A stretch of 38,917 nucleotides of DNA from Deltaproteobacteria bacterium (GCA_026417175.1 JAOADT010000001.1:1-38917), one strand, 5' to 3'. Shown: positions 4,265 to 38,917, numbered from the stretch's first letter. The notes: a model not told the origin generated them from the letters alone. Program-made: numbers and translations.

Positions 4265-5547
4265 TACTTTTTGAAATACTCACTAACTATCTTCATTGCG
4301 CAATATTCTCCGCACATGCTGCATACGTCATCTTTTAGTTTTCTTTCTTTTCTGAACTTTATAATCTTTTCCGGATCGATAGCGTATTTAATCTGTCCTT
4401 CCCAGTCCAGTGATTTCCTGCAAATTGACATGTTTTTGTCTCTCTCCAGTGCTTTCTTATTTCCCTTTGCGATATCAGCTGCATGCGCAGCAATCTTTGT
4501 AACTATTACTCCTTCCCACACATCTTCAGGAGTGGGAAGCCCAAGATGCTCTGAAGGTGTCACATAACAGAGAAAGTCAGCTCCGTAAAAACCAGCAAGT
4601 GCCCCGCCGATGGCGGAAGTGATGTGGTCATAACCAGGTGCTATATCGGTTACAACAGGTCCAAGCACATAAAAAGGAGCACCATCACATAACTTCTTCT
4701 GTAACAGGATGTTTGCTTCTATCAGATTTATGGGCACATGGCCTGGACCTTCTATCATAACTTGAACGCCCCTTTCTTTTGCCATTTTAGCTAGCTCACC
4801 AAGAGTTAAAAGTTCTTCAATTTGGGCTCTGTCTGTAGCGTCTGAAATAGAGCCTGGCCTAAGCCCATCTCCTAAGCTCAACGTCATGTCGTATTTTTTT
4901 GCTATTTCCAACACCCTATCGAACTGTTCGTAAAGTGGATTCTCTTTTTGGTTCACTATCATCCATTCCGCAAGAAAAGCCCCTCCCCTACTAACTATGT
5001 CCGTTATTCTCCCTTGTTTCTTTAGCCTTTCTAGCGCCTTTAATGTGAGACCACAGTGTACGGTTATGAAATCTACCCCATCAGCTCCATGCTTCTCTAA
5101 TACTTCAAATATCTCTTCAGGGTCCATACGAACAATACTTTTTTTCTTACTTACAGCTGATATGGCTGCTTGGTAAATGGGAACTGTACCTACTGGTATT
5201 TGAGCATGTTCGAGGATTATCCTTCGAATCTCATCCAGATTACCGCCAGTACTTAGATCCATAACCGTGTCTGCCCCTGCCTTTTTTGCCAGCTCTAGCT
5301 TTTTCAATTCCAACTCTATGTCAATGACCTCTGGAGAAGTCCCTAAATTCGCATTGACTTTTACAGAAAGACCAAAGCCAACGCCTTTTGGAACAAAATT
5401 CTTGTGTTCTCTATTAGCGAGAATCGCTATTTTACCCTCTTTTACACCCTCTAAAACAAATTGAGGGTCCACTCCTTCATCTTGGGCAATTCGTTTCATC
5501 TCTTCGGTTAAATGACCACGTTTTGCTTCAATCATCTGATTTTTCAT
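4264..5547 (-). CDS. thiC: phosphomethylpyrimidine synthase
   Basis: ThiC is a radical SAM enzyme that rearranges aminoimidazole ribotide to HMP phosphate, the pyrimidine half of thiamine. The 427-residue protein is the short form lacking the long N-terminal extension of the E. coli type. Characteristic motifs include the NANLGTS segment (about 65-71), GPGHVP and the C-terminal iron-sulfur cluster motif with Cys409, Cys412 and Cys416. The spacing is CX2CX3C, one residue shorter than the CX2CX4C of E. coli ThiC. The start overlaps the thiD-thiN stop (ATGA), and the stop overlaps the xseA start, so it is an internal gene of the thiamine operon. Confidence 0.95.
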   Translation of the reverse strand: MKNQMIEAKRGHLTEEMKRIAQDEGVDPQFVLEGVKEGKIAILANREHKNFVPKGVGFGLSVKVNANLGTSPEVIDIELELKKLELAKKAGADTVMDLSTGGNLDEIRRIILEHAQIPVGTVPIYQAAISAVSKKKSIVRMDPEEIFEVLEKHGADGVDFITVHCGLTLKALERLKKQGRITDIVSRGGAFLAEWMIVNQKENPLYEQFDRVLEIAKKYDMTLSLGDGLRPGSISDATDRAQIEELLTLGELAKMAKERGVQVMIEGPGHVPINLIEANILLQKKLCDGAPFYVLGPVVTDIAPGYDHITSAIGGALAGFYGADFLCYVTPSEHLGLPTPEDVWEGVIVTKIAAHAADIAKGNKKALERDKNMSICRKSLDWEGQIKYAIDPEKIIKFRKERKLKDDVCSMCGEYCAMKIVSEYFKK

Positions 5548-6878
5548 CTTAAAACTTTCTCCATTTTTTCCAGTAATTCAAAAGGGTCTCTTGCGAAAAG
5601 CCTTAACATCGGCTCTTTTCCTAAGTCTCCGGTATCGTATATAATATCGGGGATAAGGTCTGACTTTCTAAGAACCTCCTCTATCATAAAATCAAGGCTT
5701 TTCCCCTCTTTTATTTTAATTTCCTCGGGTTCAATTTTTCGATCGAAGTACATAACTCTCAAACCGTTTTTTTTTGCGTTTTCCAGAAGCTCTGGTGAGT
5801 ATTTTAAATTCATACAACTTCTCACTTGCGGATAGAGTTTCATAAAAGCAATGAGAGACCTTGCTACGTGACTAGATGAACCAAATTCAGGTTCAGCCTT
5901 GATGAGAATTTTCCCCCCGTGTTTTGATATACGCCCTGGGAATGCGCAAACATCTTCAATGCCCTTGGCATCTGGAAGTGCATAACATATGTTCATTTGA
6001 ACTTCAGGTATGAGATCCACAGGATTTAACCTTTCCAATCTTTCTTTTATCTCCCTGAGGGTATTTATTACCTCGAATTTTCTTGCTAAAACTCCTAACC
6101 GTCTAGAAAGAGACGAATACATGTATCCGTCTTCTTTGACCTTATAAGCTTCTTTTATGAGAACCTCAACAATAGCTTCAGCTTCAAAAAAAGCCTCAAC
6201 AGGCCGAAATCCACAGGTAAGAAAAAATAAAACAGAGGCTGAAAACATACATCCCGTCCCGTGCACCACTCTGTCAAGTCTTATTTTTCTCTTCTCTACA
6301 AAAGCACTCCCATCGTAAAATATGTCAACTGGGTCTCCCTCCAAATGGCCGCCTTTTATAATGACTGTCCTTGCTCCCATCTCCTTTAGCCTCATTGCGG
6401 CTTCTCTAATATCTCTCTCATTTACAATTTTTATTCCTGAAAGTCTTTCGGCCTCCTCTATGTTCGGAGTAATCATAGTGCACAGGGGGATTAAGAATTT
6501 TTTAAGTGATTCAATCCCTTTCTCAGTAAGGAGAGGATAACCATTTTTTGCTTTAAGCACAGGATCAACCACTATGGGAATCTGCCAGTCCTTCTCTTTC
6601 ATTACTGACACAATAATCTCAATGTATTCCTCATTTGCTAAAACACCCGTTTTTAAACCTCCCACCTTTATTCCTTCGTCCTCTATGCTTTGCAACATTC
6701 TTTTGAATAATTCTAAGGGTATACCGTGCAACGATTTCACGCCACTCGGCCCCTGTATCACAATGGAGGTAGGGATTCCCAGTCCATGACTTCCCAAACT
6801 CGAAAACACTTCTGTATCTTTTGTTATCCCGGCACCTGATGTGGGATCAAAGCCGGCAATAGAAACGAGTATCTTCAT
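5544..6878 (-). CDS. thiDN: bifunctional HMP(-P) kinase / thiamine-phosphate synthase (ThiD-ThiN fusion)
   Basis: The N-terminal domain (about 1-260) is the ThiD ribokinase-fold kinase, which phosphorylates HMP and HMP-P. It has an [15 protein letters not shown] motif and a GTGC anion-hole motif at 207-210. The C-terminal domain (about 275-444) is ThiN, an alternative thiamine-phosphate synthase that joins HMP-PP to the thiazole phosphate and replaces ThiE. The [19 protein letters not shown] segment near the C-terminus is typical. The fusion is common in archaea, Thermotogae and some anaerobic bacteria. ATGA overlaps at both ends couple it to thi4 upstream and thiC downstream. Confidence 0.93.
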
Positions 6879-7648
6879 TTAAGCTGACTCAATATAAGAT
6901 CAGCTACTTTTTTTCCTGAAAGGAGCATCCCTCCAAAAACAGGTCCCATTCGGTAAGAACCAAATGTGGCATTTGCTCCCATACCAGCAACATATAAACC
7001 TGGGTATACTTCTTTAGTGTTCTCAAGTGTCATCTCCTCGGCTACTTCAGCCCAAAGACACTTTTCTCCTTCTATTTTTCCTGAGGGTGTTTTTAGCTCC
7101 ACATTCATCTTCCTTTCAAGTACTTTCACAATTTCTATAGGATGACCCGTGGCATCAACAACTGCCTTGGCCATTACAGTTAGAGGATCCACGTGTAAAG
7201 ATGCCATCTCTACTGCAGTCCAGTTTATAACTACGCCCGCAACTCTATCCTTTCTAACTACTAAATCTTCAACGCTGATGAGGTTAAATATTTTTGCTCC
7301 GGCCTTAATTGCATTAAAACATACCCCAGAGACTGCTTCTATCGCATCTACCGTGTAATAACCTTCTTTATAAGGTTTTGTTTGTATCCCAAGTTCATCC
7401 AAGATTGTCTTCCCTTTTTCCTGCACAACAATCTCGTTGAACATCATACCGCCGCCCCACATACCACCACCTATTGAAAGCTTTCTTTCAAAAAGAACTA
7501 CCTTCAACCCACCTTTTGAGAGAAAGTAGGATGCTACAAGTCCAGAAGGACCACCTCCGCACACAACTACATCCACATCGAGACAGGAAAGTATTTTTTC
7601 AGTATATTTTTCTATAATCGCTCTCGTTATAATCCTCTCATCAATCAT
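6875..7648 (-). CDS. thi4: sulfide-dependent ADP-thiazole synthase (Thi4 type)
   Basis: Thi4 makes the thiazole half of thiamine from NAD and glycine. The 257-residue protein has the FAD/NAD-like dinucleotide fold ([14 protein letters not shown], 27-40) and the [13 protein letters not shown] motif (60-72). At the position of the suicide cysteine of yeast Thi4 it has His152 (in LHVDPL), as in Methanocaldococcus Thi4. This predicts use of free sulfide and multiple turnover and fits a sulfide-rich anaerobe. An AGGTATAAAGG ribosome binding site precedes the ATG. It opens the thiamine operon. No thiG, thiS, thiH or thiE lies in this window. Confidence 0.93.
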
Positions 7649-7676
7649 CCTTTATACCTCTTAAAAAATTTTGATT

Positions 7677-7685
7677 AGTATACCA
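7677..7685 (-). promoter_or_regulatory. extended -10 promoter of the thiamine operon
   Basis: On the minus strand TGGTATACT is a good extended -10 element (TGn plus TATACT), about 28 bases before the thi4 start codon. The predicted 5' untranslated region is only about 20 bases. There is no room for a TPP riboswitch, and no TPP-riboswitch signature was found in 7649-7800. Confidence 0.5.
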
Positions 7686-7764
7686 CACCTCGCTTCAAGA
7701 AAAGCAATAATAATTAAATAACTTTTTCTGATTCTAGATAAATGAGAATACTTAGGTCATTTTA

Positions 7765-7795
7765 TAAAAAAGAGGGGACCTACGTCCCCCCTCTT
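7765..7795 (-). terminator. terminator of the minus-strand TRAP operon
   Basis: An 8-bp stem (7770-7777 with 7788-7795) lies just after the dctP stop and is followed, on the minus strand, by a T tract (TCTTTTTTATAA). A degraded version of this hairpin region also follows the dctP pseudogene around 10780. Confidence 0.75.
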
Positions 7796-7804
7796 ATCTA
7801 AAGT

Positions 7805-8869
7805 TTAAGGTTTCCAAGCAGGATATGTAAGTTTGTTGTATTTTTCAACAAGCTCCTTTGCTGTTTTTATGATTTTGTCAGCATCGTGTCCTTTTTCTTT
7901 TAGGGATTTCGCGTATTCAGTTTCCACTGGTTTTAGGATTTCTACAAGTTTTTTTATCTCAGAGTCTGGGAAATATAGAAATTCATGGCCACCTGGCATT
8001 TTCTTTGCAAATTCCTCCCCTTTTTTCTGATGATACTGCCAAATTTGTCCTGCTTCCTTCATAGCCATATCTGCAACAGCTTCAAACGCATCTTGCAAGT
8101 CTTTAGGAAGGGATTTCCATTTGTTAAGGTTCATTGCTACCCAAAAATACTCGGAATAAAAATAGGGCATGAAGGTAGAGTATTTGAATATTTCGGCATG
8201 TTTCCATCCTTCAAGGGTCTCAGCGGGAGAAACTAGCGCATCTATGATGCCTTTTTTTGCAGCCAAATAAACATCTCCCATTGGCATAGCAACAGGTTCT
8301 CCTCCTACTGCCTTAACTCCAAGAACTCCAGAACCTGTAACTCTTATTTTTAAGCCTTTAAGTTGTTCGATCTTAGTTATAGGCTTGTTTGAATGTAACC
8401 ACCCTGGACCTGTTGCATAGAAGTACAAAACCTTTACGTTCTCAAATTCCTTAGGTTTCATTACCTTATAAAATTCCCAACCTGCATGTGCGGCAGCGTC
8501 TGCATTCTTTGGTGGAGCAATACCTGGCTGAGTCAAAGTGAGCATAACAGGGAACTTTCCGGGATTATAACCGCAGCTTGAAGTCGCGGAATCGGCTATA
8601 CCTTTTTCGACGCCGTCGAAAAGATCTGTCGCTTTAAGGAGAGTATCCACCGGATAGAATTTGATATCCAGTTCATATTTGTCCTTAACCTTACTCTGAA
8701 CAAGCTTGAAATAGCGAGGAAACTGTTCGGTATGTGTAAAGTGAGTCGAGCCCCACAGGTGCGCAAAGCTTATCGTGATTTTTTCTGTGGTATAAGCATT
8801 TGAACCGCAAAAGAGAAGCAAAATTACCATAAAAAAAATCATGGAAAGAACTTTTTTACCTCTAATCAT
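7805..8869 (-). CDS. dctP: TRAP transporter substrate-binding protein DctP (system 1)
   Basis: This periplasmic solute-binding protein for a TRAP carboxylate importer has 354 residues with an N-terminal signal peptide (about 1-25). The KGLKIRVTGSG segment (about 171-181) carries the conserved Arg176 that salt-bridges the substrate carboxylate in DctP proteins, and the DALVSPAETLEGWK segment is typical of the family. It is the last gene of a dctQ-dctM-dctP operon, with a 92-base gap to dctM and a ribosome binding site AAAGGGGGAAAAA. Its last 129 bases are nearly identical to the end of the pseudogene at 10808-11250. The substrate is an organic acid of unknown identity. Confidence 0.93.
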   Translation of the reverse strand: MIRGKKVLSMIFFMVILLLFCGSNAYTTEKITISFAHLWGSTHFTHTEQFPRYFKLVQSKVKDKYELDIKFYPVDTLLKATDLFDGVEKGIADSATSSCGYNPGKFPVMLTLTQPGIAPPKNADAAAHAGWEFYKVMKPKEFENVKVLYFYATGPGWLHSNKPITKIEQLKGLKIRVTGSGVLGVKAVGGEPVAMPMGDVYLAAKKGIIDALVSPAETLEGWKHAEIFKYSTFMPYFYSEYFWVAMNLNKWKSLPKDLQDAFEAVADMAMKEAGQIWQYHQKKGEEFAKKMPGGHEFLYFPDSEIKKLVEILKPVETEYAKSLKEKGHDADKIIKTAKELVEKYNKLTYPAWKP

Positions 8870-12839: not shown

Positions 12840-13232
12840 CTAGCCTCCTAAAAGAGTCCTTATCGTGGAAATTATCTTTTCTTTGGACGTCCCAGGCAAA
12901 AACACCTCGCTTATACCGAGTGCTTTTAACTTTTCTACGTCATCTGGAGGAATCACACCACCGAAGACTATTTTTCTTCCTTCTATGCCGTACCTAATCG
13001 CTAGTTCTCTTAATTTCTCTGCGTAATACATATGGGAGCCCTCAAGAAAGCTTAACCCTAAAATGTCTGCGTCCTCTTGCAACATAGCCTTTATAACCTT
13101 CTCAGGAGTATTATACAGTCCCATGTATACTACTTCGAAGCCCGCATCTTGTAACCATTTTGAAACTATTCTTATTCCATTGGTATGACCGTCAAGACCA
13201 AGTTTGGCTACAATTATCTTACCTCTGGACAT
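12840..13232 (-). CDS. B12-binding small subunit of acyl-CoA mutase (pair 1)
   Basis: This 130-residue protein is a stand-alone cobalamin-binding domain like those of isobutyryl-CoA and 2-hydroxyisobutyryl-CoA mutases. The base-off/His-on motif DGHTNG is intact, with the His that ligates cobalt at residue 16. The downstream GLSFLEGSH and FGGVIPPDD segments also fit. I place the start at the ATG at 13232, which has GGGGAGGGG just upstream; a TTG at 13256 in the same frame would overlap the large-subunit gene. The length then matches the second small subunit (131 residues). It is expected to dimerise with the large subunit encoded immediately upstream. Confidence 0.92.
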   Translation of the reverse strand: MSRGKIIVAKLGLDGHTNGIRIVSKWLQDAGFEVVYMGLYNTPEKVIKAMLQEDADILGLSFLEGSHMYYAEKLRELAIRYGIEGRKIVFGGVIPPDDVEKLKALGISEVFLPGTSKEKIISTIRTLLGG

Positions 13233-13248
13233 CTTCCCCTCCCCAAAA

Positions 13249-14889
13249 TCACCCAATTTTCAATTCAAAATCGTACGCCTTTCTTAGAGTCTCACATATC
13301 TCGCCTAAAGTAGCTCGATTTTCAATAGCGTTCACGACGGAAACAAAAATATTTGACCCTTCCTTCGCCTCCGTATAAAGTCTATCCAGTGCCATTTTTA
13401 CACTAGATGTATCCCTATTTTTCTTATAGTTTTTCACATAATCGATTCTTTCTTTTTGCATCTCAGTTGAATACACTTTAGAAATACTGATGGGGAGCTT
13501 TTCCTCTTTATCTTCAAATATGTTGAGTCCTACTATAAACTCCTCTTTTTCTTCTATCCTTCTCGCATACTCGTGGCGCCCCCTAGCTATTCTTTCATCG
13601 ATCCACCCTCTCTTAAAGCATTCAATAAATCCCCCCTGCTCTTCAATTTCTATCATCAGTTTTCTAATCTCTTCTTCAAATTTATCTGTAAGCCATTCGA
13701 TTACATAAGAGCCACCTAGTGGATCAACCACCTTCGTGATATTAGTCTCATATGCTATTATTTGTTGAATTCTTATAGAAAGCTTTTGAGCCTCTTCCGT
13801 GGGCAGTGCATACGCTTCATCGTATGATGTCGTATGAATTGACTGGGCTCCAGCAAGTACGGCAGCCAATGTCTGTATTGTAGCTCTAACAATGTTATTT
13901 AAGGGCTGCTGAGCAGTAAGAGCCAGGCCGGATGTTTGAATAGCCGTTTTAAACCACATGCTCCTTTCTTTTTCGGCTTTAAATTCTTCCTTTAGCATCT
14001 TTGCCCATATACGTCTCATGGCCCTTATCTTTGCTATCTCTTCAAGAAAATCCATACCAATGTCGGTAAAGAAGGCTATCTTACTTGCAAATTCATCTAT
14101 ATGGAAACCCCGGTCTAACAGTTTTCTTATGTACTCTTTCGCAATACACATGGCGAAGGCTGCTTCTTCTGGCGCCCTAAGGCATGTCTCACGCATGTTA
14201 TATGCGTTTACGTTTAGGATAGTCCATCTAGGAATGTTTTTTATGCAGTATTCCATAACGTCTATTCCGATCTTTATGTTACCTTCTAGCGGGAAAAGCG
14301 GAAATTCGGCCTCTCGCGTAGGACCAACGAGCTGGTTAAAACTGTCGTTCATTACAGTGCCTATTAATCCATTCTCAGGAATACCCCTTTTACGTGCCAG
14401 AAGAACATACATCGCCATAAGGACACAAGATGCAGGAGGAGAAACAATAAGCGTAGTACTCACTCTATCCAAAGGAATCCCATCAAAAAGTTTTTCCATA
14501 TCCTCTAGCGTTGAAATACTAGTCCCCACAAGTCCTATATCCCCTTCCACGAGTGGATGATCAGGATCGAGTCCGAGCTTTACAACCACATCCACATCAA
14601 TATTGAGTCCTGTTTGACCTGCGCTTAGGACAGCTTTCATCCTTTTGTTACTCTCTTCCGGTGTCCCATAGCCTGTCTGTTGTCTCCTCGTCCAAAATCG
14701 ACCCCTATACATATCTCTATGAATCCCGCGGGTAAAAGGGTAAGTACCTGGTATTTCCCGTCTGTCCGTTACATCATCTTGTGTGTAAAATTCCTTAAGC
14801 TCAATCCCCGAGGCCGTTTTAAAGTTTTTAGGTCTTTCTCCCCTTATATACGCATCAAAATCTATGTTTTCAGGCTTTTCACTCATCAT
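13249..14889 (-). CDS. acyl-CoA mutase large subunit, unusual active site (pair 1)
   Basis: This 546-residue TIM-barrel subunit belongs to the coenzyme-B12 methylmalonyl-CoA mutase family and has the split organisation of isobutyryl-CoA mutase. Conserved landmarks include WTRRQQTGYGTPEES (66-80), FDGIPLDRVS and VDPLGGSY. Aligned to Propionibacterium MCM, Tyr89 is Gln71, Ala116 is Asp98, Gln197 is Met180, Arg207 is Pro190 and His244 is Asn231. Tyr243 is kept as Tyr230. MCM needs Tyr89 and Arg207, isobutyryl-CoA mutase has Phe and Gln there, and 2-hydroxyisobutyryl-CoA mutase has Ile90 and Asp117. So the substrate is not predicted by any of these. Tandem ATGs mark the start after AAGGGGGGG. Not named mcmA for this reason. 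Confidence 0.92.
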   Translation of the reverse strand: MMSEKPENIDFDAYIRGERPKNFKTASGIELKEFYTQDDVTDRREIPGTYPFTRGIHRDMYRGRFWTRRQQTGYGTPEESNKRMKAVLSAGQTGLNIDVDVVVKLGLDPDHPLVEGDIGLVGTSISTLEDMEKLFDGIPLDRVSTTLIVSPPASCVLMAMYVLLARKRGIPENGLIGTVMNDSFNQLVGPTREAEFPLFPLEGNIKIGIDVMEYCIKNIPRWTILNVNAYNMRETCLRAPEEAAFAMCIAKEYIRKLLDRGFHIDEFASKIAFFTDIGMDFLEEIAKIRAMRRIWAKMLKEEFKAEKERSMWFKTAIQTSGLALTAQQPLNNIVRATIQTLAAVLAGAQSIHTTSYDEAYALPTEEAQKLSIRIQQIIAYETNITKVVDPLGGSYVIEWLTDKFEEEIRKLMIEIEEQGGFIECFKRGWIDERIARGRHEYARRIEEKEEFIVGLNIFEDKEEKLPISISKVYSTEMQKERIDYVKNYKKNRDTSSVKMALDRLYTEAKEGSNIFVSVVNAIENRATLGEICETLRKAYDFELKIG

Positions 14890-14952
14890 ACCCCCCCTTA
14901 TTCAAAGAGATGACCCCTAGAGCCTTTACAAGATCTTTCCATTGGTCAAATC

Positions 14953-16503
14953 CTAACCTCCATATTTTGCCCGGAGCTTTTGCTTCTCGATCTTCCCGGA
15001 AGGATTCCTGGGAATTTCATCAAAGAAGAAGTGTCGAGGCCTCTTATACCTGGGTAGGTTTTGTTCGCAATAGCTCTTCATCTCTTCAACAGTGAGTTTT
15101 TCCCCAGTTTTTGGACAGATAACAGCCGCTACAGCTTCACCAAGTCTCTCATCTGGTACCCCAATAACCGCTACGTCAAATATTTTCGGGTGTCTGTGAA
15201 GTACAGCTTCTATCTCCGCAGGATATATATTTTCCCCTCCAGAGATTATGAGATCCTTTTTTCTATCCACTATGTAAATAAAGCCTTCATCGTCCATCTT
15301 TGCAAGATCACCCGTATAAAGCCACCCTTCTCTTATCGTCTTAAATGTAGCCTCAGGATTCTTGTAATATTCTTTCATAATACCGTTTCCCTTGACGAGT
15401 ATCTCCCCAACCTCTCCAATTTTTACATCTTCTCCTTTTTCATTTACGATCCTCAAATCCCACAACAGAGTCGGTTTTCCTATGGATCCGATTTTCGATT
15501 CGTCTGCTTTTCCCAGATGTGTTATTCCAGGCCCACCAGCCTCACTTAACCCATAAGTTGTGTCATAGGAAACGTGTGGAAAATATGCCTTGAGTTTCTT
15601 AATGAGAGAAGTTGGTATAGGTTGCGCGCCCATATGGATGAGCCTTAATTTGTTGAGATCATATTCAACAAGCCTTATTTCTCCATTTTCTATTGCCCTT
15701 ATTATATCTAGAGCCCATGGAACAAGGAGAAAGACAAGAGTACATCTTTCCTTTGATAGAGTCTCAATTACTATGTCTGGCCTTATAAGTTCAGTTAGAA
15801 GTACATTTGTACCCCCCGTGATGAGACCACCTAATAAATGACCAATAGCCAGATGGTAAAGAGGCGGCATCATAAGTTGAACGTCGTCAGATGTCCACTC
15901 GTGACATATAGCCTCGGATAGAGCGGAAACCATGAGTGTTCTATGAGCATGTAAAACTGCTTTAGGTGCGCCCGTAGTACCTGATGTAAAATAGAGGGCA
16001 CATTCTTCTTCATCTCTGAGATCCACTTTCTCTGTTTCAACTGTAAATTTCTCAAATATATCTTCAAGCAATTCAATACCATCTACCTTTTTAGTTCCCA
16101 TTGAGATGAAACATTGTACGCCATCCAAGTAAGACCTAAGTGCCACAATTCGTTCTAGATATTCTTCATCAAAGAAAAACATCTGGGGTTCAGCTATATC
16201 GAAACAATACTTTATGTCCTCATTAGTGAACCTATAATTGAGCGGTACTACTACTGCCCCTGAAGCCATTATTCCAAAAAAAACTTCGAGCCACTCAATA
16301 GAATTTCGGCCAAGAAGGGCAACTTTTTTGCCTTTTCCAATCTTTCGACAACGAAGATATGAGGCAATTTTGGTCATTTTTTGATAAAATTCAAGCCATG
16401 TGACTTGCTTTCTTTCATTACTTATGGGTTTAATCTGAACATAGGCTATTTTTTCAGGATACATCCTCGCATTCTTTACAACTAGATCGACTATTGTGAA
16501 CAT
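14953..16503 (-). CDS. acyl-CoA synthetase (AMP-forming)
   Basis: This protein activates a carboxylic acid to its CoA thioester through an acyl-adenylate. It has the ANL-superfamily motifs in order: the phosphate-binding YFTSGTTGAPKA, the YGLSEAGG motif, the hinge-region YTGDLAKMDDEGF and DRKKDLIISGGENIYP, and the C-terminal PRNPSGKIEKQ with the catalytic lysine. I place the start at the ATG at 16503 (516 residues), which has AAAGGGGGG upstream; an in-frame TTG at 16536 is less likely. The gene lies between the two mutase pairs, so it probably supplies their CoA substrate. Chain-length or substrate specificity cannot be read from sequence. Confidence 0.9.
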   Translation of the reverse strand: MFTIVDLVVKNARMYPEKIAYVQIKPISNERKQVTWLEFYQKMTKIASYLRCRKIGKGKKVALLGRNSIEWLEVFFGIMASGAVVVPLNYRFTNEDIKYCFDIAEPQMFFFDEEYLERIVALRSYLDGVQCFISMGTKKVDGIELLEDIFEKFTVETEKVDLRDEEECALYFTSGTTGAPKAVLHAHRTLMVSALSEAICHEWTSDDVQLMMPPLYHLAIGHLLGGLITGGTNVLLTELIRPDIVIETLSKERCTLVFLLVPWALDIIRAIENGEIRLVEYDLNKLRLIHMGAQPIPTSLIKKLKAYFPHVSYDTTYGLSEAGGPGITHLGKADESKIGSIGKPTLLWDLRIVNEKGEDVKIGEVGEILVKGNGIMKEYYKNPEATFKTIREGWLYTGDLAKMDDEGFIYIVDRKKDLIISGGENIYPAEIEAVLHRHPKIFDVAVIGVPDERLGEAVAAVICPKTGEKLTVEEMKSYCEQNLPRYKRPRHFFFDEIPRNPSGKIEKQKLRAKYGG

Positions 16504-16541
16504 ATCGAGACCCCCCTTTCCAAATGATAGTTTCAAAAAAG

Positions 16542-16937
16542 TTAAGCTTGTTCGCTCAATGACTTTTTTATTTCATTTAGTATCTCGTCTTTTTTCGCCC
16601 CGGGTGTAAAAACGGCTTCTACCCCCATCTCTTTTAGAACTACAACATCCTTGGGGGGGATAATACCACCTACAAAGATTTTAACGTGGTTCAAATTATT
16701 GACCCGAAAAAGCTCAATTAACTTAGCAGTGTAAAAAATGTGTTCGCCACCATGAAAGCTCAAACCTACGGCATGCGCATCCTCTTCTATGACCATTCGT
16801 AAAATATGCTCTGCCGAATTGTAAACCCCTGCGTAGATCACTTCATAACCGGAATCTTTTAACCATCTCGATATTATCCTTAAAGCATTGTCGTGGGCAT
16901 CTAATCCCATTTTTGCCAAAATAATTCTTTTTCTCAT
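16542..16937 (-). CDS. B12-binding small subunit of acyl-CoA mutase (pair 2), variant motif
   Basis: This 131-residue protein is a stand-alone cobalamin-binding domain, paralogous to the one at 12840-13232. The cobalt-ligand motif reads DAHDNA (13-18): Asp13 and His15 are kept, but the final Gly of the DXHXXG consensus is Ala18. The GLSFHGGEH and VGGIIPPKD segments that contact the nucleotide tail are otherwise intact. A GAGGGTGTAAAGG ribosome binding site precedes the ATG. It follows the second large subunit by 34 bases and should be its partner. Binding of B12 is likely but the Ala change deserves testing. Confidence 0.9.
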   Translation of the reverse strand: MRKRIILAKMGLDAHDNALRIISRWLKDSGYEVIYAGVYNSAEHILRMVIEEDAHAVGLSFHGGEHIFYTAKLIELFRVNNLNHVKIFVGGIIPPKDVVVLKEMGVEAVFTPGAKKDEILNEIKKSLSEQA

Positions 16938-16971
16938 CCTTTACACCCTCTTTAGCCTTCTCAATCCGTAT

Positions 16972-18603
16972 TCAACATGGAATTTGATAATCCAACGCTT
17001 CTCGCATTGCGTCACATATTTCCTGCAATGTGGCTCCTGACCTAACAGCTTCCATAATAGGGATAACGAAGTTTCCCTGTCCCCCTCGTTTTGTGAATAA
17101 ATACAGATCCTTCAGTGCTTTATAGGTTAGCTCTCTTCCCGGCCTTTTTTTGTATTGAACGGAGTATTCTATTCGTTTTTTCTGCATGTCTGGACTATGT
17201 TCAAATAGTTCTATGTCGCTAGCAGAATCTTCACTTCTGAAAATGTTCACTCCCACTATAGCAAGATCACCGTTTTCGAGTTCATTCGCCAACTTGTATC
17301 TCGCCTCGTTTAATTCTTGCTCTATAATTCCCTTTTTAAAACATTCTATGAATCCCCCTTTTTTTTCGATCTCTTTAATAGCCTCCCATATTTTTTCTTC
17401 CATTTCATCAGTCAATGTTTCCAAAAAATATGAACCCCCAAGAGGATCTACCACCTTTGTGACACCCGTCTCATAAGCTATGATCTGTTGAGTTCTTATT
17501 GCAAGCTTTTGGGCCTTTTCAGTTGGTAAACAGTAGGCTTCGTCGTAACATGTTGTGTCCACTGATTGGACTCCACTTAGTACAGCTGTGAGAGTCTGGA
17601 TAGCGGCCCTTACAATGTTATTCATTGGCTCCTGAGCTGTAAATGTGAGAGACGACGTTTGTACGGCACATCTAAATCGCATACTCCTTTCATCCTTCGC
17701 TTTAAACATTTCTTTCATAACTCTGGCCCATATACGTCTCATCGCCCTAAACTTTGCGACTTCCTCAAATATATCTAGATGAACAGCGCAAAAAAAGCCT
17801 ATTCTCGGTCCAAAACTGTCCACGTCGAGGCCTCTTTCTAAAAGTCTCCTTACATAGTCCATGCCAAGGGATATCGCAAATGCCGCTTCCTGAACAGCAT
17901 TTACTCCACATTCTCTTATGTTTCTCGAATTTACATTAAGAACATTCCACCTCGGAACAGTTTTTAGCAGATATTCGATTAAATCAAGACCTATCTTTAA
18001 AGCTAAATCTATTGGGAAGAAAGCAGTATTAGCTTGAAATGTGGGTCCAACAAGCTGAGTAAAAGGGCAGTTCATTATTGTCCCAGAAAGATCATGGACC
18101 CTAATCCCTCTCTCATCAGCCATAAGTAAGTACTGACTCATTATTACTGCTGAAGACGGTGGGGGAAATATTAAAGTCGAACTGATTTTTTCTATAGGTA
18201 TGTCCTTAAATAGTGCCAACATATCCTCGTATGTACACATTGATGTTCCTTGTAGCCCAACATCTGCTCGCGCCAGTGGGTAATCCGGATCCAAACCAAG
18301 TTTGCCAGCTATGTCTGAGTCTATGTTTATTCCTGTTTGTCCCACCTTAAACAGAAATTTCAAAAGTTCATTGCTTTCTTCCGGTGTACCGAAACCACTT
18401 TGCTGTCTTCTGGTCCATAATCTCGCCCTGTACATGTCCTTATAAATACCCCTAGTGTATGGATATTCTCCTGCGTCTGGAAGTTTTTTGTTCCAGGACG
18501 TCTCATCATATATCCTTTTATATTCAATTCCCGAAATTGAACGAAAATGACGAAGTTTCTCTCCAACAGTGTGATCGTAATCTGTCATAAAAGTACTCTT
18601 CAT
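16972..18603 (-). CDS. acyl-CoA mutase large subunit, unusual active site (pair 2)
   Basis: This 543-residue paralogue of the mutase at 13249-14889 is very similar over the barrel (for example NNIVRA, IQTL, QQIIAYET and VDPLGGSY are shared). It has the same distinctive changes: Gln68 for MCM Tyr89, Asp95 for Ala116, Met177 for Gln197, Pro187 for Arg207 and Asn228 for His244. It differs further, with Arg227 where MCM has Tyr243 and Asp349 where MCM and pair 1 have His in the QSxHT motif. A GGGGGAAGG ribosome binding site lies against the ATG. It starts 9 bases after tetR. It may act on a different intermediate from pair 1 or form a mixed complex with it. Confidence 0.92.
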   Translation of the reverse strand: MKSTFMTDYDHTVGEKLRHFRSISGIEYKRIYDETSWNKKLPDAGEYPYTRGIYKDMYRARLWTRRQQSGFGTPEESNELLKFLFKVGQTGINIDSDIAGKLGLDPDYPLARADVGLQGTSMCTYEDMLALFKDIPIEKISSTLIFPPPSSAVIMSQYLLMADERGIRVHDLSGTIMNCPFTQLVGPTFQANTAFFPIDLALKIGLDLIEYLLKTVPRWNVLNVNSRNIRECGVNAVQEAAFAISLGMDYVRRLLERGLDVDSFGPRIGFFCAVHLDIFEEVAKFRAMRRIWARVMKEMFKAKDERSMRFRCAVQTSSLTFTAQEPMNNIVRAAIQTLTAVLSGVQSVDTTCYDEAYCLPTEKAQKLAIRTQQIIAYETGVTKVVDPLGGSYFLETLTDEMEEKIWEAIKEIEKKGGFIECFKKGIIEQELNEARYKLANELENGDLAIVGVNIFRSEDSASDIELFEHSPDMQKKRIEYSVQYKKRPGRELTYKALKDLYLFTKRGGQGNFVIPIMEAVRSGATLQEICDAMREALDYQIPC

Positions 18604-34058: not shown

Positions 34059-35174
34059 TCAGAGAAAGTTTTTTAGCCCTAAGTCCTCTAATAACTTTAA
34101 TAGTACATTCAGTCCCTTCTTCTCTGGGTGATCTTGGATCGAAACCCATTGAACAAGTTTCTTGATTGCGCGACCGGAGACCATAGCTTCTTGGGCCATT
34201 TCTTTTCCCTGAAGTAACGTGCCACACTTTTCTGCTATGTAAAGAATTGCTCCCGCGTTGATAGCCGTGAAATTAACGCAAGCCTCAGAACCTTTTCCAG
34301 CTAAGACCAACAAAAATCTTTTCACTTCTTCTTCCATATTTTCTTTAGACTGAATGTCTGAAAGTTTACACCTGGGAATACCAAAGTCCTCAGGTTCAAG
34401 TTCATATCTTGTCATTTTATCTCTGGAAAACTCTATCACCTTAGTTTTACCACAAGGGGATATTTCATCCATACCTTTGTTTAAACCTTCTACCTCCCCG
34501 TGGGCAACCATGCCCTTTTCGTAACCTATCCTTTTCATGAGGTTTGCCATCTTCTCTATTATCCTGCTACTGTATACTCCTCTAATAGCTAATTGTGGAA
34601 TAACAGGAGAAGCAAGAGATGCAGAAATGTTAAAGGTTGACCCAAAATACATCTTGGACAGAATTCGGGCAAGCGCACCCGGATGAACTTTAGCACTCAT
34701 GCCATTAAATAATCCTATACCTGCTTCTTTTACGCTTTCAGCTACCTTTTCTACAGGAGCCTCCACATCCAAGCCCAGAGCTTCTAGTATATCCACGGTT
34801 CCACACTTGCTAGTAAGCGCTCTTGCTCCGTGTCTCACCATAATTACTCCAAGAGAGGATGCCACTATTGCCGACGCAGTGCTTACATTGAACGTGTAGA
34901 GATTATCCATCCCCGTGCCTGAATTTTCAACAAGTGGACCCGGAAGACTTGTTTGTACCTTAATTGTATCCAGTTCGTAGATAGCCTTCCACGCTCCGTA
35001 TAACTCATCCACTGTTTCACCCTTGGCAACAAGAGCAGCAAGAAAAGCGCCTTGCTGAACCTCCGACTGTCTGTTTAAAAGTACATCAGAAAACATCTCG
35101 TAAGATGTTTTTTCATCTAGATCTTTCTTTTCTATAAGGCTCATAATGTGACGACCAAAACTTCTTGGATCCAT
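34059..35174 (-). CDS. TrpD-like (glycosyltransferase family 3) phosphoribosyltransferase homologue
   Basis: This 371-residue protein has the anthranilate phosphoribosyltransferase fold, with an N-terminal helical domain and the motifs GTGMDN (86-91), NVST (96-99), RHGAR (114-118) and TSKCGTVDILE (121-131). These correspond to the PRPP and metal site. However, the anthranilate-contact region (the RT-FN-GPL-NP segment of TrpD) reads FGSTFNISASLASP, lacking the arginine and the GPLxNP element. No other trp gene is near. It lies 12 bases after the dehydrogenase and behind the cobalamin riboswitch. I infer a phosphoribosyl transfer or phosphorolysis on another base, perhaps linked to cobamide metabolism. 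Confidence 0.8.
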   Translation of the reverse strand: MDPRSFGRHIMSLIEKKDLDEKTSYEMFSDVLLNRQSEVQQGAFLAALVAKGETVDELYGAWKAIYELDTIKVQTSLPGPLVENSGTGMDNLYTFNVSTASAIVASSLGVIMVRHGARALTSKCGTVDILEALGLDVEAPVEKVAESVKEAGIGLFNGMSAKVHPGALARILSKMYFGSTFNISASLASPVIPQLAIRGVYSSRIIEKMANLMKRIGYEKGMVAHGEVEGLNKGMDEISPCGKTKVIEFSRDKMTRYELEPEDFGIPRCKLSDIQSKENMEEEVKRFLLVLAGKGSEACVNFTAINAGAILYIAEKCGTLLQGKEMAQEAMVSGRAIKKLVQWVSIQDHPEKKGLNVLLKLLEDLGLKNFL

Positions 35175-35186
35175 TCTATTCTCCTC

Positions 35187-36161
35187 CTATCCAGAATTAG
35201 GGTAAATAAGCACCTTCATACCTTTTCTTTCTTCTACAACTTGGATTGCTTTCTCTATCTCGTCTAAAGAAAATCTGTGAGTTATTAAATCTTCCACTAT
35301 AACAGCTTTATCCTCAATCAATTGGAGGGCTCTTACCGCATGTCTCAAACAAGAACCATAACTACCAACAACACTCTGCTCTTTATAGTGGATTGTATTA
35401 AAGTCAATTTCGATATACTTTTGGTCATTTAGAAGACCGGAAAAAATGACTAATCTACCTCGTGCGGTAAGACAGTTTAGGGCCTCTCTATAAGCAGAAG
35501 GTGAGCCTACAGCTACAAAACAGACATCGAATGTTAGCCCAGCGGGATTGTCTATCCCATTTGCAAAAGCCATTCTTGGTGCGTATGGTTCGATTATAGT
35601 CGGATACGCGCCGAGTGCTAACGCTACTCTTTTGAGAAGATTCCCTACTGGACCCGCTCCCCAGATACCCACTGATTCACCACTTTTTAAACCTGAAAGC
35701 TCTATAGCATTTAAGCAACATGAGAGTGGCTCGGCAAACACAGCTTCCTCAAAAGAGATGGTATCTGGAATCTTTATTACAGAAGCCTGAGGAGATAACA
35801 CATACTCGGCAAAACCACCAGGTCTGTGAAAGCCCATAATTTGCATTCTTTCACATAAATTCTCGGCCCCTTTGATACAATTTTTGCATACCCTACAGGA
35901 AGTTCCAGGATAGATGTATACCCGATCTCCCAATTCTATCTCCTCAACATCACTACCCTTTTCTACAACCTTTCCAACTACTTCTTCACCCGGTATACAT
36001 GGTAGTACCAAATCCCTATGCCCATACTTTAACACTTTTAAATCCGTGCTACAGAACCCTGCAATTTTTACTTCAATTACCACCTCATCAGGTCCGGGAC
36101 GAGGCTGAGGTGCATTATCAAGCTTGTATAAACCAACTTTTTTTAGAATTAAAGCCTTCAT
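35187..36161 (-). CDS. medium-chain zinc-dependent dehydrogenase
   Basis: This 324-residue protein is an MDR-superfamily alcohol/polyol dehydrogenase. The structural zinc set is complete (Cys89, Cys92, Cys95, Cys103). The catalytic zinc ligand Cys37 is present, but the usual GHE motif reads GEE (58-60), so Glu59 replaces the His ligand. The NAD-binding GAGPVG motif is at 168-173. A GGAGG ribosome binding site precedes the ATG. It is the first gene after the cobalamin riboswitch and is followed after 12 bases by the TrpD-like gene. Threonine or polyol dehydrogenases are the nearest general type; the substrate is unknown. Confidence 0.85.
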   Translation of the reverse strand: MKALILKKVGLYKLDNAPQPRPGPDEVVIEVKIAGFCSTDLKVLKYGHRDLVLPCIPGEEVVGKVVEKGSDVEEIELGDRVYIYPGTSCRVCKNCIKGAENLCERMQIMGFHRPGGFAEYVLSPQASVIKIPDTISFEEAVFAEPLSCCLNAIELSGLKSGESVGIWGAGPVGNLLKRVALALGAYPTIIEPYAPRMAFANGIDNPAGLTFDVCFVAVGSPSAYREALNCLTARGRLVIFSGLLNDQKYIEIDFNTIHYKEQSVVGSYGSCLRHAVRALQLIEDKAVIVEDLITHRFSLDEIEKAIQVVEERKGMKVLIYPNSG

Positions 36162-36175
36162 GTTCTAACCTCCAA

Positions 36176-36217
36176 AAGAAAAAAGGGTTCCGACGGTAAG
36201 ATCCGTCGGAACCCTTT
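36176..36217 (-). terminator. riboswitch expression-platform terminator
   Basis: A 15-bp perfect stem (36182-36196 with 36203-36217) and 6-base loop are followed on the minus strand by TTTTTTCTTTT. It lies between the cobalamin aptamer and the dehydrogenase start, as expected for transcriptional control by B12. Confidence 0.92.
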
Positions 36218-36224
36218 ACCATCA

Positions 36225-36415
36225 GGTTACCGACATACTGGCTCGGAGGTCTTCTGGCTTCTCCCATAGGCACCCAACCTTCCCACCCGCCTAAAGACGG
36301 GCAGTGGCATTCTTTTTGGTACCTACTTGCCTTCAATAACCATGAAGGCAGGAGTCACAGCGGCGGGTCCGCCACGGATTTTCACCGTGTTCCGAGATCC
36401 GAACCAGCTGACAGA
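36225..36415 (-). promoter_or_regulatory. cobalamin (adenosylcobalamin-type) riboswitch
   Basis: On the minus strand the aptamer has the conserved core ACGGTGAAAATCCGTGGCGG followed by CCCGCCGCTGTGA, then AATGCCACTG, the GGGAAGG-TTGGGTG segment and the B12-box-like GAGAAGCCAGAAGACCTCC. The order and spacing match the class found before B12 synthesis and uptake genes. High cobalamin would favour the terminator just downstream and switch off the dehydrogenase and TrpD-like genes. Confidence 0.93.
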
Positions 36416-36468
36416 AAATTTATAGCTTAAAAGAAAAATGAATGTCAACCTATACAGTAAGTGGGGCT

Positions 36469-37356
36469 TCAAAGGCTAATACTCTTCAAAAATTCCATAG
36501 GGTTCTTTGTAACAGATGCTATAACGTCATCCTCTGGAAAACCTTTCTCAAAAAGTCTCTGTAAACAAAAAGCCAGAGGATAACACCCTCCCTTTAACTT
36601 ACTCCCTTTCTTTCTTTTTTGATCAATACATAAAGTCCCACTATAGGAGTCAGAAACAAGAACTATGCGATTTTTCTTTTTAAGGGTGAATATAAGTCTT
36701 AAAGTGTTCAGATCTACATGTTCAAGGTCACCAATTGCCTCCACGTATATATCCTCATTCAAAAGCCCAAACCCCGCAATTCCCACTTCCCTGTGATGGA
36801 TACCTCTCATGGCATTAAAAATATGCGTTATATACTTTGCTCCATTTTTGTATCCTTCTTCTGCCTCGGTATAGGTAGCATCTGAATGCCCCATACCTAC
36901 AATAATCCCCTTTTTGACTATTGTTCGAATTAGTGCCGCTGCACCGTTAAGTTCAGGTGACAAAGTTATCATCTTGACTATATCGTTGAAGCCATCGATG
37001 AGTTCTTCTAATTTCTTTTCATTCGGACTCAGAAAAAATCTCTTATCAAGTGCTCCAGCCTTCTTTTTGTTCAAAAAAGGGCCTTCCAGATGGACACCTA
37101 GAATTCTTGCCGTATCTAAAGAACCTGATACTTTAGACTGGATCTCCATAGCTTTCTTACAAGCATGCAAGATGGTCCTCATTTTTTCAATTGGGCCTGG
37201 GTAGATGGATAGAATTATATTTCTTGTACCTAAAGAAAAATGGACCTTTGCGATCTCAAGTAATTCTTCTGGAGACGATGTTTCTGTACTTAAACCTTTG
37301 ATACCGTGGGTATGAATATCTGTGATAACTAGGTCTTTAAACCTCTCCGCATCCAA
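36469..37356 (-). CDS. NagA-like amidohydrolase
   Basis: This 295-residue protein resembles N-acetylglucosamine-6-phosphate deacetylase. It has the TIM-barrel motifs ITDIHTHG (11-18), GVHLEGPFL with the metal-binding Glu, MITLSPE, GHSDAT, THIFNAM and a catalytic Asp in LVSDSYSG. It is about 80 residues shorter than usual and begins directly at the barrel, so the small beta-sandwich domain is missing. The only in-frame start is TTG at 37356, 9 bases after the MvhD gene, without a clear ribosome binding site. It is probably translated from the hdr transcript. The sugar substrate is not certain, as no other amino-sugar genes are nearby. Confidence 0.78.
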   Translation of the reverse strand: MDAERFKDLVITDIHTHGIKGLSTETSSPEELLEIAKVHFSLGTRNIILSIYPGPIEKMRTILHACKKAMEIQSKVSGSLDTARILGVHLEGPFLNKKKAGALDKRFFLSPNEKKLEELIDGFNDIVKMITLSPELNGAAALIRTIVKKGIIVGMGHSDATYTEAEEGYKNGAKYITHIFNAMRGIHHREVGIAGFGLLNEDIYVEAIGDLEHVDLNTLRLIFTLKKKNRIVLVSDSYSGTLCIDQKRKKGSKLKGGCYPLAFCLQRLFEKGFPEDDVIASVTKNPMEFLKSISL

Positions 37357-37365
37357 AGATTTTTT

Positions 37366-38214
37366 TTACGCCACTTCCTTTTCTTTCTCCCGTTTTATCA
37401 ATCTTTTTTCTTCAGGTGGTGGAGGAGGCACATTAACACCGATAAGCTTTGTGACCGCCCTGAATTTTGGCGGACATACATCTAAACACGTCCCACATTT
37501 TATGCACTTATCCTGATCTATCACGTGAACCATACCCCTTTTGCTATCTATGGCATCTACGGGGCATCGTCTAGCACACGTCATGCATGCTTGACATTTC
37601 TCTGGCTCTATGTAATAGGAGGGGATTTCCTTGAAAAGGTTCTCTATCTCTTCGGCTGTAAAAAATTCGTTCCAACTCTCTGGAGAATTTTTATCAAGTT
37701 TTGTTTTGAGCTTTTCTCTCTTTACAATTTTTATGTACGGCACAAGACGTAATATCTCTTTGATTCTTCTTACTAATTCTTCTTCCGACATCCCTTCTCC
37801 AACTCCAACTGGACCGAGCTCTTTTATCTTTTTAACCATCTCATTTACGGTCTCTGCAAAATACTGTCCCATACTCGCATTCATAAACTCGATCCTCAAC
37901 CTTTCCGGATAAAGACCTATATGTTCCATTATCCTTTTTGCGAGTAACGTCATAGTTAACGCATGGTAATTTCCATGAGTAGTATAGTTACACTCGTCAA
38001 GCCTACATCCGCCTATATAAACACCATCCATCTTATTAAGGAATGCCCTGAACACAAAAGCAAGATCAACTCTTCCACTACACATTACCCTAATTATTCT
38101 TATTTCTGGTGTGTATTGCAGCCTGGAAACTCCAGCCATATCCGCAGCACCGTATCCTCACCAGTGACAGAGAAAACCTATTATCTTTGGTTTAAACTTC
38201 ATAGGCTTCACCAT
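37366..38214 (-). CDS. mvhD: selenocysteine-containing MvhD-ferredoxin fusion (hydrogenase iron-sulfur subunit)
   Basis: MvhD passes electrons to heterodisulfide reductase HdrA in flavin-based electron bifurcation. Conventional calling would start at 38139, but reading upstream through an in-frame TGA (38158-38160) gives IIGFLCHWUGYGAADMAG, the MvhD N-terminus with Cys16 and Sec19. The start at 38214 has AAGGAGGTGA at a good distance. The protein (282 residues) has the MvhD domain with CSGRVD and GCRLDEC (about 20-140) and a C-terminal pair of 4Fe-4S motifs (CQACMTCARRCP and CIKCGTCLDVCP, about 205-250). It lies 27 bases after hdrA. Confidence 0.93.
38123..38135 (-). promoter_or_regulatory. 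possible SECIS hairpin
   Basis: CTGGA and TCCAG form a 5-bp stem with a GTT loop, 22 bases downstream of the UGA codon and inside the coding sequence. Bacterial SECIS elements lie in this window and expose a G and U in the loop. A lower stem is not clear. Confidence 0.5.
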
Positions 38215-38241
38215 CCGCTTTCACCTCCTTCCCATTCTGTT

Positions 38242-38917
38242 TTACGAAGCAACTTTTTTTACTTCTTCTAAAATCTCTTTTTCCGGATTTGCCGCATCTA
38301 TCTGTGCGAAAAGTTGCTCATCTCTGTAATGTTGTAGCTGAATCGCTCCTGTTGGACATTTGGAATTACAAAGTCCACATCCCTTACATAGAACGGGATT
38401 CATTCTTGCTTTTTTACCTTGTTTAGTTTCGTAAATTTCTATTGCTCCGTAGGTGCATATTTCACTACATGCCCCACATCCCATACATCTTTTCTCATCG
38501 ACTATACATACTGAACCAGATGCTATCACGGTATCATGAGAAATTAAAGTGATCACCCTTCCTGCCGCTCCTAAGGCTTGGCTTATAGCTTCATCTATGT
38601 GCTTTGGATAATGAGCGATTCCGCAAAGGTAAACCCCATCAGTGCTGAAATCAACTGGTCTGAGCTTCACATGTGCTTCTTTAAAGAAATCATCAGGTCC
38701 TAACTGGGCATTATACAGCAAAGATATCTCTTTGTTGCTCTCCGGTGCGATTACAGCAACAGCAAGTGAAACAAGATCCGCGTCAATTTCCAAGGTCTTC
38801 TCAAGAATGGGATCGAATACGGTAACCCTGATCAGTTCTTTTCCGCTTTCTTTGACAAGTTTCACGGAAGGCTTTTTTTGTGGTTCGTACCTTATAAACC
38901 TTACACCCTTTTTAGAT
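38242..38917 (-). CDS. hdrA: heterodisulfide reductase subunit A-like protein, 3' part
   Basis: The frame is open from the window edge to the stop at 38242, so the N-terminal part lies outside. The visible part has the end of the FAD domain (VYLCGIAHYPKHIDEAISQA), which is an HdrA hallmark, and two 4Fe-4S motifs (CMGCGACSEICTYGA and CKGCGLCNSKCPTGA). HdrA bifurcates electrons between ferredoxin and a disulfide or other acceptor. It is followed by mvhD, so an Hdr-Mvh-type electron transfer complex is encoded. A GTG at 38865 is internal, since in-frame residues of the family continue upstream. Confidence 0.92.
   Translation of the reverse strand, partial: SKKGVRFIRYEPQKKPSVKLVKESGKELIRVTVFDPILEKTLEIDADLVSLAVAVIAPESNKEISLLYNAQLGPDDFFKEAHVKLRPVDFSTDGVYLCGIAHYPKHIDEAISQALGAAGRVITLISHDTVIASGSVCIVDEKRCMGCGACSEICTYGAIEIYETKQGKKARMNPVLCKGCGLCNSKCPTGAIQLQHYRDEQLFAQIDAANPEKEILEEVKKVAS

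Follow-up and report, generated by a model that had tools for sequence, protein, structure and literature searches.

A cobalamin riboswitch-controlled dehydrogenase and TrpD-like protein as a candidate module of the lower-ligand branch of cobamide assembly

Whether a microbe can use a given B12-type cofactor is decided by the lower ligand. Among the described systems close to the one considered here is the BluB/CobT2 fusion of Propionibacterium freudenreichii, which produces DMB as well as activating it, with channelling (PMC4657239). Anaerobes that form 5-hydroxybenzimidazole cobamides carry loci in which BzaF (or BzaAB) neighbors CobT, and ArsAB is devoted to a single lower-ligand class. According to Shelton et al., 42% of predicted bacterial cobamide producers have no known benzimidazole-synthesis or phenolic-attachment gene (PMC6461909).

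Here, we describe a pair of genes, encoding a dehydrogenase and a TrpD-like protein, of which the open-access literature yielded no description (most subscription papers lay outside the search, such that absence is not proven). The only open-literature paper found to contain "anthranilate phosphoribosyltransferase," "cobalamin," and "CobT" together is PMC8620254; in its figure of variable regions in an Antarctic Chlorobium, the gene key lists trpD and an unnamed dehydrogenase and gives them no cobamide-synthesis role.

A riboswitch-led operon and its two proteins

The pair lies in a 38,917-nt stretch of DNA from a Deltaproteobacteria bacterium (GCA_026417175.1, JAOADT010000001.1:1-38917), which was analyzed in its entirety and is hereafter called the window. 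Its leader and two genes are arranged as follows:

36228..36418, minus strand: complete cobalamin riboswitch aptamer (RF00174; cmscan, 55.0 bits, model positions 1-189)
36182..36217, minus strand: intrinsic terminator hairpin with a 15-bp stem, a 6-nt loop, and a T-tract (from sequence and folding)
35187..36161, minus strand: Zn-type MDR dehydrogenase of 324 aa, sorbitol/threonine-dehydrogenase-like (Pfam ADH_N, E 7.6e-28; ADH_zinc_N)
34059..35174, minus strand: TrpD-like phosphoribosyltransferase paralogue of 371 aa (Glycos_transf_3, E 9.9e-55)

The aptamer match (36418-36228) exceeds the gathering score of 31.5 bits (E 3.8e-11), covers all 189 model positions, and was recovered again by a scan of the whole genome, in which the total number of cobalamin riboswitches is only three. 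The terminator (36217-36182) sits between the aptamer and the start of the dehydrogenase, where it constitutes the expression platform, and the leader region folds far better than its shuffled counterparts (z, -6.1); from this anatomy, transcription is predicted to be off at high B12. The two genes follow on one strand with a gap of 12 bp, and the operon (34059-36161) contains no further B12 gene. A complete aptamer and terminator ahead of a two-gene operon had been proposed from an inspection of the DNA without database searches (the sequence-only reading), and all of these elements are confirmed. Given that such riboswitches number only three in the genome and that the arrangement recurs in dozens of genomes, the association of riboswitch and pair is not due to chance. 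Beyond the riboswitch, on its upstream side, the same strand carries a short NagA-like amidohydrolase gene followed by FlpD- and HdrA-type genes (window 36469-38865).

The TrpD homologue is, judging from its sequence and gene context, not a tryptophan enzyme. Its TIGR01245 (trpD) score of 261 is above the cut-off of 199, versus 401 for the genuine TrpD of this genome, which is encoded within a trp operon on a separate contig; the window protein is thus neither the sole TrpD of the genome nor in a trp-operon context. Phylogenetically, the TrpD-like family, which includes members from many phyla and from archaea, is split from true TrpDs by a branch with 100/100 support. An AlphaFold2 model (pLDDT 91.7) has a confident TrpD fold, whose best match among solved structures is TrpD of S. 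solfataricus bound to PRPP and anthranilate (1zyk), at 27% identity and with a Z of 45.3 and a deviation of 1.7 A across 340 residues. The sequence-only reading held that this protein keeps the PRPP and metal motifs and has lost the anthranilate-binding elements, which is borne out by the family alignment: GTGMD (GTG-D), N-x-S-T, and M-D-E are retained, and the segment that reads PxRKEIGIRT..GPLTNP in TrpD reads --SQIRFGST..ASLANP in the family. The region that in TrpD contains the anthranilate arginine (PxRxxxGIRT) is thereby shortened, with SQIRFGST in its place; the anthranilate-contacting arginine is R193 of the Mtb enzyme and R164 of the S. solfataricus enzyme (compare the titles of PDB entries for Mtb R193 variants).

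The dehydrogenase is expected to be an NAD(P)-using redox enzyme. In an alignment of 89 sequences, whose numbering is used here and exceeds that of the protein by one, C38, E61, and E145 as zinc ligands, C90/93/96/104 as structural cysteines, and glycines G169/G171/G174 are near invariant. The third catalytic position, 60, is occupied by His or Glu, with Glu in about 40% of members, including the window protein (GEE versus GHE). In these 89 members, a Lys takes the place of the His that usually serves as proton relay, and the family has a specific GHRDL motif.

Elsewhere, the window encodes the B12-dependent mutases that had been predicted from the sequence: two methylmalonyl-CoA-mutase-type large subunits, each with a stand-alone B12-binding small subunit (window 12840-18603). 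They flank an acyl-CoA ligase gene and adjoin one for an MmgE/PrpD protein, and together they likely form an acyl-CoA mutase cluster.

Relatives, B12 gene neighborhoods, and known lower-ligand routes

In the sample of the window's phylum, 14 of 395 genomes match the TrpD-like protein at E <= 1e-62, and 11 do so by the family profile. When genome_contigs was queried with a single sequence, no match was returned, but a scan with an 11-sequence alignment gave 305 candidate relatives, the best 80 of which were taken on. With earlier loci these amount to 95, or 92 distinct loci after records from the same contigs (L033 and L057, L034 and L050, L035 and L096) were merged. Carriers include Thermodesulfobacteriota, Nitrospirota, Bacillota, Aquificota, Chloroflexota, Actinomycetota, Kiritimatiellota, Spirochaetota, and archaea. 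No relatives were detected in the viral contigs searched, and the plasmid matches listed have identities of at most 34% and are mostly annotated as trpD. Among the weaker order-level matches, two loci were left out of the family, namely, L012, which is a real trp-operon TrpD, and L013, which resembles it, and three divergent loci were retained as outliers only. Of these three, L043 and L044 contain a dehydrogenase/TrpD-like pair (~36% identity) with no riboswitch or CobT nearby and may represent a sister system that acts on a different substrate, and L042 has its divergent member beside a molybdopterin oxidoreductase, with no dehydrogenase.

The dehydrogenase is encoded within 3 kb of the TrpD-like gene at 89 of the 92 loci. 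A cobalamin riboswitch lies upstream at 57 of the 81 bacterial loci, a count obtained by applying an in-house conserved-core pattern to the loci and Rfam to a subset of them (pattern-only loci have the pattern as their sole evidence), and at none of the 11 archaeal loci when these same searches are applied. Among 475 whole loci that had been shuffled, the pattern matched 7, and Rfam agreed at all 17 of the pattern-positive loci that it also covered; because the pattern overlooked some riboswitches found by Rfam, the figure of 57 may be low. At eight pattern-negative loci, L072 among them, an Rfam search returned no riboswitch. CobT is encoded within 4 kb at 29 of the 92 loci (the window's own operon is not one of these), and further neighbors across the loci include CobU, CobS, a CobD-type aminotransferase, CbiB, CbiZ, and transport genes. 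L065 contains two strong cobalamin riboswitches (3530-3715 and 7624-7807), one ahead of the dehydrogenase and TrpD-like genes and the other ahead of CobU-CobT-CobS. From this gene context, we consider the conserved link between the pair and B12 to be strong. The sequence-only reading had named two findings that would count against it in combination, a normal cobT under its own riboswitch in this genome and orthologues unlinked to B12 in other species; the first is present, but the orthologues are clearly linked.

In 15 of the 29 loci with a nearby CobT, the dehydrogenase is fused N-terminally to that protein; Pfam places ADH_N at the N terminus and DBI_PRT at residues ~355-710 of the fusions in L041, L082, L101, and L104. 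The fused CobTs group in a single clade (92/93), and in them the GEGTGAA motif, which holds the catalytic base of the well-studied CobT, is retained. More generally, 45 of 49 genomes that contain the pair have a CobT scoring above the PF02277 cut-off. Neither window protein has a PF02277 (CobT) domain by Pfam, and the genome encodes a separate CobT in a riboswitch-led operon (btuB-cbiB-cobD-[AsnB-like]-[DUF71]-btuF-...-btuC-btuD-cobU-cobT-cobS). The AsnB-like and DUF71/Dph6-like genes between CobD and BtuF in this operon (L018:11635-13187; the genome's own contig C22, ~71.6-73.2 kb) fit the DUF71-B12 subgroup, for which a part in B12 salvage has been predicted (PMC3541065). Each of the five fusion genomes that were examined (G442, G452, G455, G461, and G463) has an additional, unfused CobT, which adjoins BzaF in G452 and G461, and one genome with a separate, unfused pair (G425) also has a CobT adjoining BzaF. 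This suggests that the pair is served by a CobT of its own, in addition to the one of the BzaF-CobT route.

Known routes to benzimidazoles are sparse among the carriers. BluB exceeds the TIGR02476 cut-off in 1 of 49 genomes, and the window's own genome has no BluB above that cut-off; of 50 genomes, 8 have a member of the BzaF clade and 2 have BzaAB-like pairs, which leaves most without a recognized benzimidazole route, though the incompleteness of metagenome-assembled genomes may hide some. Because PF01964 or TIGR04386 scores by themselves fail to separate ThiC from BzaF, ThiC-family homologues were sorted by tree and BzaF profile (at least 785 bits for BzaF, and at most 542 for other ThiC homologues), and the labels BzaF and BzaAB denote tree position, profile scores, and gene arrangement. 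The window's own genome has no match to the BzaF profile. Its only ThiC-family gene is in the thiamine operon at window 4264-7648, together with a ThiD-like kinase fusion and a Thi4-type thiazole synthase gene.

Two possible clues to the pair's function were followed and rejected, and a third idea was set aside. The pair is present in Trichlorobacter records (L050, L070, and L072), and Trichlorobacter lovleyi makes DMB-cobalamin according to a review, with G. sulfurreducens making a 5-hydroxybenzimidazole cobamide; a link to DMB through T. lovleyi was dropped, as strain SZ is absent from the best 80 of the 305 relatives and pSZ77 from the plasmid matches listed. The purinyl-cobamide of Desulfitobacterium is uninformative, its purine having come from yeast extract. 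That the pair is a strict alternative to BzaF was also rejected: in the phylum, BzaF occurs in 2 of 11 genomes with the pair versus 78 of 384 others, and thus is neither excluded nor enriched, and the fusion lineage often has both. On account of this independence, the pair is not simply a BzaF substitute.

Candidate roles in cobamide assembly

A lower-ligand role is the best reading of the pair, since its orthologues are tied to B12 (a riboswitch at 57 of 81 bacterial loci, CobT at 29 of 92, fused at 15). This part of the sequence-only reading stands, but its casting of the TrpD-like enzyme as a stand-in for CobT does not. That the pair belongs to the lower-ligand branch of cobamide assembly is highly probable. 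For the more specific model, in which dehydrogenase and TrpD-like protein act as a B12-repressed two-enzyme module of the base branch, upstream of CobT, we put the chances at about even, and by analogy with known systems it is an equally open bet whether the pair would make or modify the base or instead perform another step of this branch.

Under the base-supply model, a scarcity of cobamide would, to judge from the leader's anatomy, let transcription pass the terminator. The TrpD-like enzyme would then use PRPP to phosphoribosylate a small acceptor, aromatic or heteroaromatic but other than anthranilate and presumably lacking a carboxylate, and the dehydrogenase would oxidize or reduce either the product of the TrpD-like enzyme or its acceptor, before or after the transfer. 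(We tentatively place PRPP transfer first and redox second.) The resulting base would pass to CobT, which would form the alpha-ribotide for CobS. Because an inverting PRPP transfer, as in TrpD, yields a beta-ribotide, the product of the TrpD-like enzyme cannot itself be the alpha-ribotide used by CobS; the latter still has to be made by CobT, in keeping with CobT's constant company. That the module supplies a base is inferred from the BluB-CobT2 and BzaF-CobT precedents, and, by analogy with the former, CobT's fused partner likely provides its base. Counting against base supply are the 63 of 92 loci that show no CobT in the surrounding 4 kb, the coexistence of BzaF and the module in some genomes, where a second base has no evident need, and the window operon itself, which is without another B12 gene.

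Alternatively, the TrpD-like enzyme could recharge CobT's donor: from PRPP and a released nicotinate-like acid, it would make the beta-ribotide (NaMN or an analogue) that CobT uses, two inversions then giving the alpha-ribotide, and the dehydrogenase would set the redox state of the carrier. This scheme accounts for the adjacency and fusion to CobT regardless of the base, as well as for the independence from BzaF, and it makes use of a PRPP site in an inverting fold and of the fact that nicotinate, like anthranilate, is a small aromatic acid. We nevertheless regard it as unlikely: it has no need for a dehydrogenase, TrpD's carboxylate-binding arginine has been lost, NAD synthesis normally provides NaMN, and CobT is common in genomes that do not contain the module.

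Slightly less likely still is a role in salvage or remodeling, in which the pair would degrade or recycle parts of imported cobamides (an unwanted base or ribotide, or aminopropanol), with the threonine-dehydrogenase-related enzyme acting on the linker. CbiZ adjoins the pair in a few Geobacterales loci (cluster 11), BtuFCD-type transport genes are near it in others, and the pair occurs in small Dehalococcoidia genomes. Set against this, those few CbiZ neighbors compare with CobT at 29 of 92 loci, the fusion partner is CobT and not CbiZ or CobD, and the pair is also found beside CobS, the CobD-type aminotransferase, and CbiB.

We consider it improbable that the pair spares B12, i.e., that it is a B12-independent substitute for a B12-dependent reaction that is switched on at low B12, like MetE. 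Cobalamin riboswitches are generally known to govern such isozymes as well (PMC8620254), and the lack of another B12 gene in the window operon would suit this role. The CobT, CobS, CbiB, or CobD-type neighbors at many loci and the fusion to CobT, however, indicate synthesis rather than sparing. Moreover, a pair of TrpD and dehydrogenase corresponds to no known B12 enzyme.

Finally, the original proposal that the TrpD-like enzyme replaces CobT, activating the base directly while the dehydrogenase shapes the ligand, is consistent with the phosphoribosyltransferase fold and riboswitch control but very improbable, given that CobT is above cut-off in nearly all module genomes (45 of 49), often beside or fused to the pair and with GEGTGAA intact, that this genome's own cobT lies in a riboswitch-led operon, and that a TrpD fold using PRPP would yield the beta anomer.

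Comparison with described systems

Overall, the pair looks like an undescribed route for supplying the lower part of cobamides in many anaerobic bacteria and some archaea. We tentatively suggest an oxygen-independent lower-ligand pathway with no relation to BluB, BzaF/BzaAB, or ArsAB: TrpD-derived PRPP chemistry and a dehydrogenase would make or tailor the base, which a dedicated and sometimes fused CobT would then attach. If true, such a pathway, common to bacteria and archaea, would explain part of the cobamide producers that are without known lower-ligand genes. As a two-gene, riboswitch-controlled marker that occurs in many phyla and is fused to CobT, the pair makes this gap testable, and it would aid the prediction of cobamides in uncultured methanogens, sulfate reducers, and syntrophs. 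The automatic label "anthranilate phosphoribosyltransferase" can also be corrected for the TrpD-like family.

In its components, the module is related to two well-known enzyme families. With TrpD (TIGR01245), the TrpD-like protein shares the fold (Z 45.3 to 1zyk), the PRPP and metal motifs, and ~24 to 36% identity to solved structures, from which it differs in its deleted or replaced anthranilate-arginine region, its placement in a separate clade (100/100), and its B12 rather than trp gene context. The dehydrogenase has the zinc ligands and the GxGxxG nucleotide-binding motif of Zn-type MDR dehydrogenases (threonine, sorbitol, and galactitol-1-P), whereas the Lys at the proton-relay position, the GHRDL motif, and the fusion to CobT set its family apart.

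As a system, the module resembles ArsAB in being dedicated to one lower-ligand class, as proposed here, although ArsAB consists of two CobT paralogues in tandem and the module of one CobT and proteins of other folds. Like the BzaF (or BzaAB)-CobT loci through which 5-hydroxybenzimidazole cobamides are made anaerobically, it belongs to anaerobes, neighbors CobT (an arrangement seen for BzaF in this genome set too), and would supply a base; BzaF, however, is a radical-SAM paralogue of ThiC, and the module contains no such gene and mostly occurs in genomes without BzaF. The BluB/CobT2 protein of Propionibacterium freudenreichii likewise has an oxidoreductase domain N-terminal to a CobT domain and acts in the lower-ligand branch (PMC4657239). 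In contrast to BluB, which is a flavin-destroying enzyme of the nitroreductase fold and needs O2, the module has a Zn-type MDR dehydrogenase that is partnered by a TrpD-like protein, and it is almost always found without BluB.
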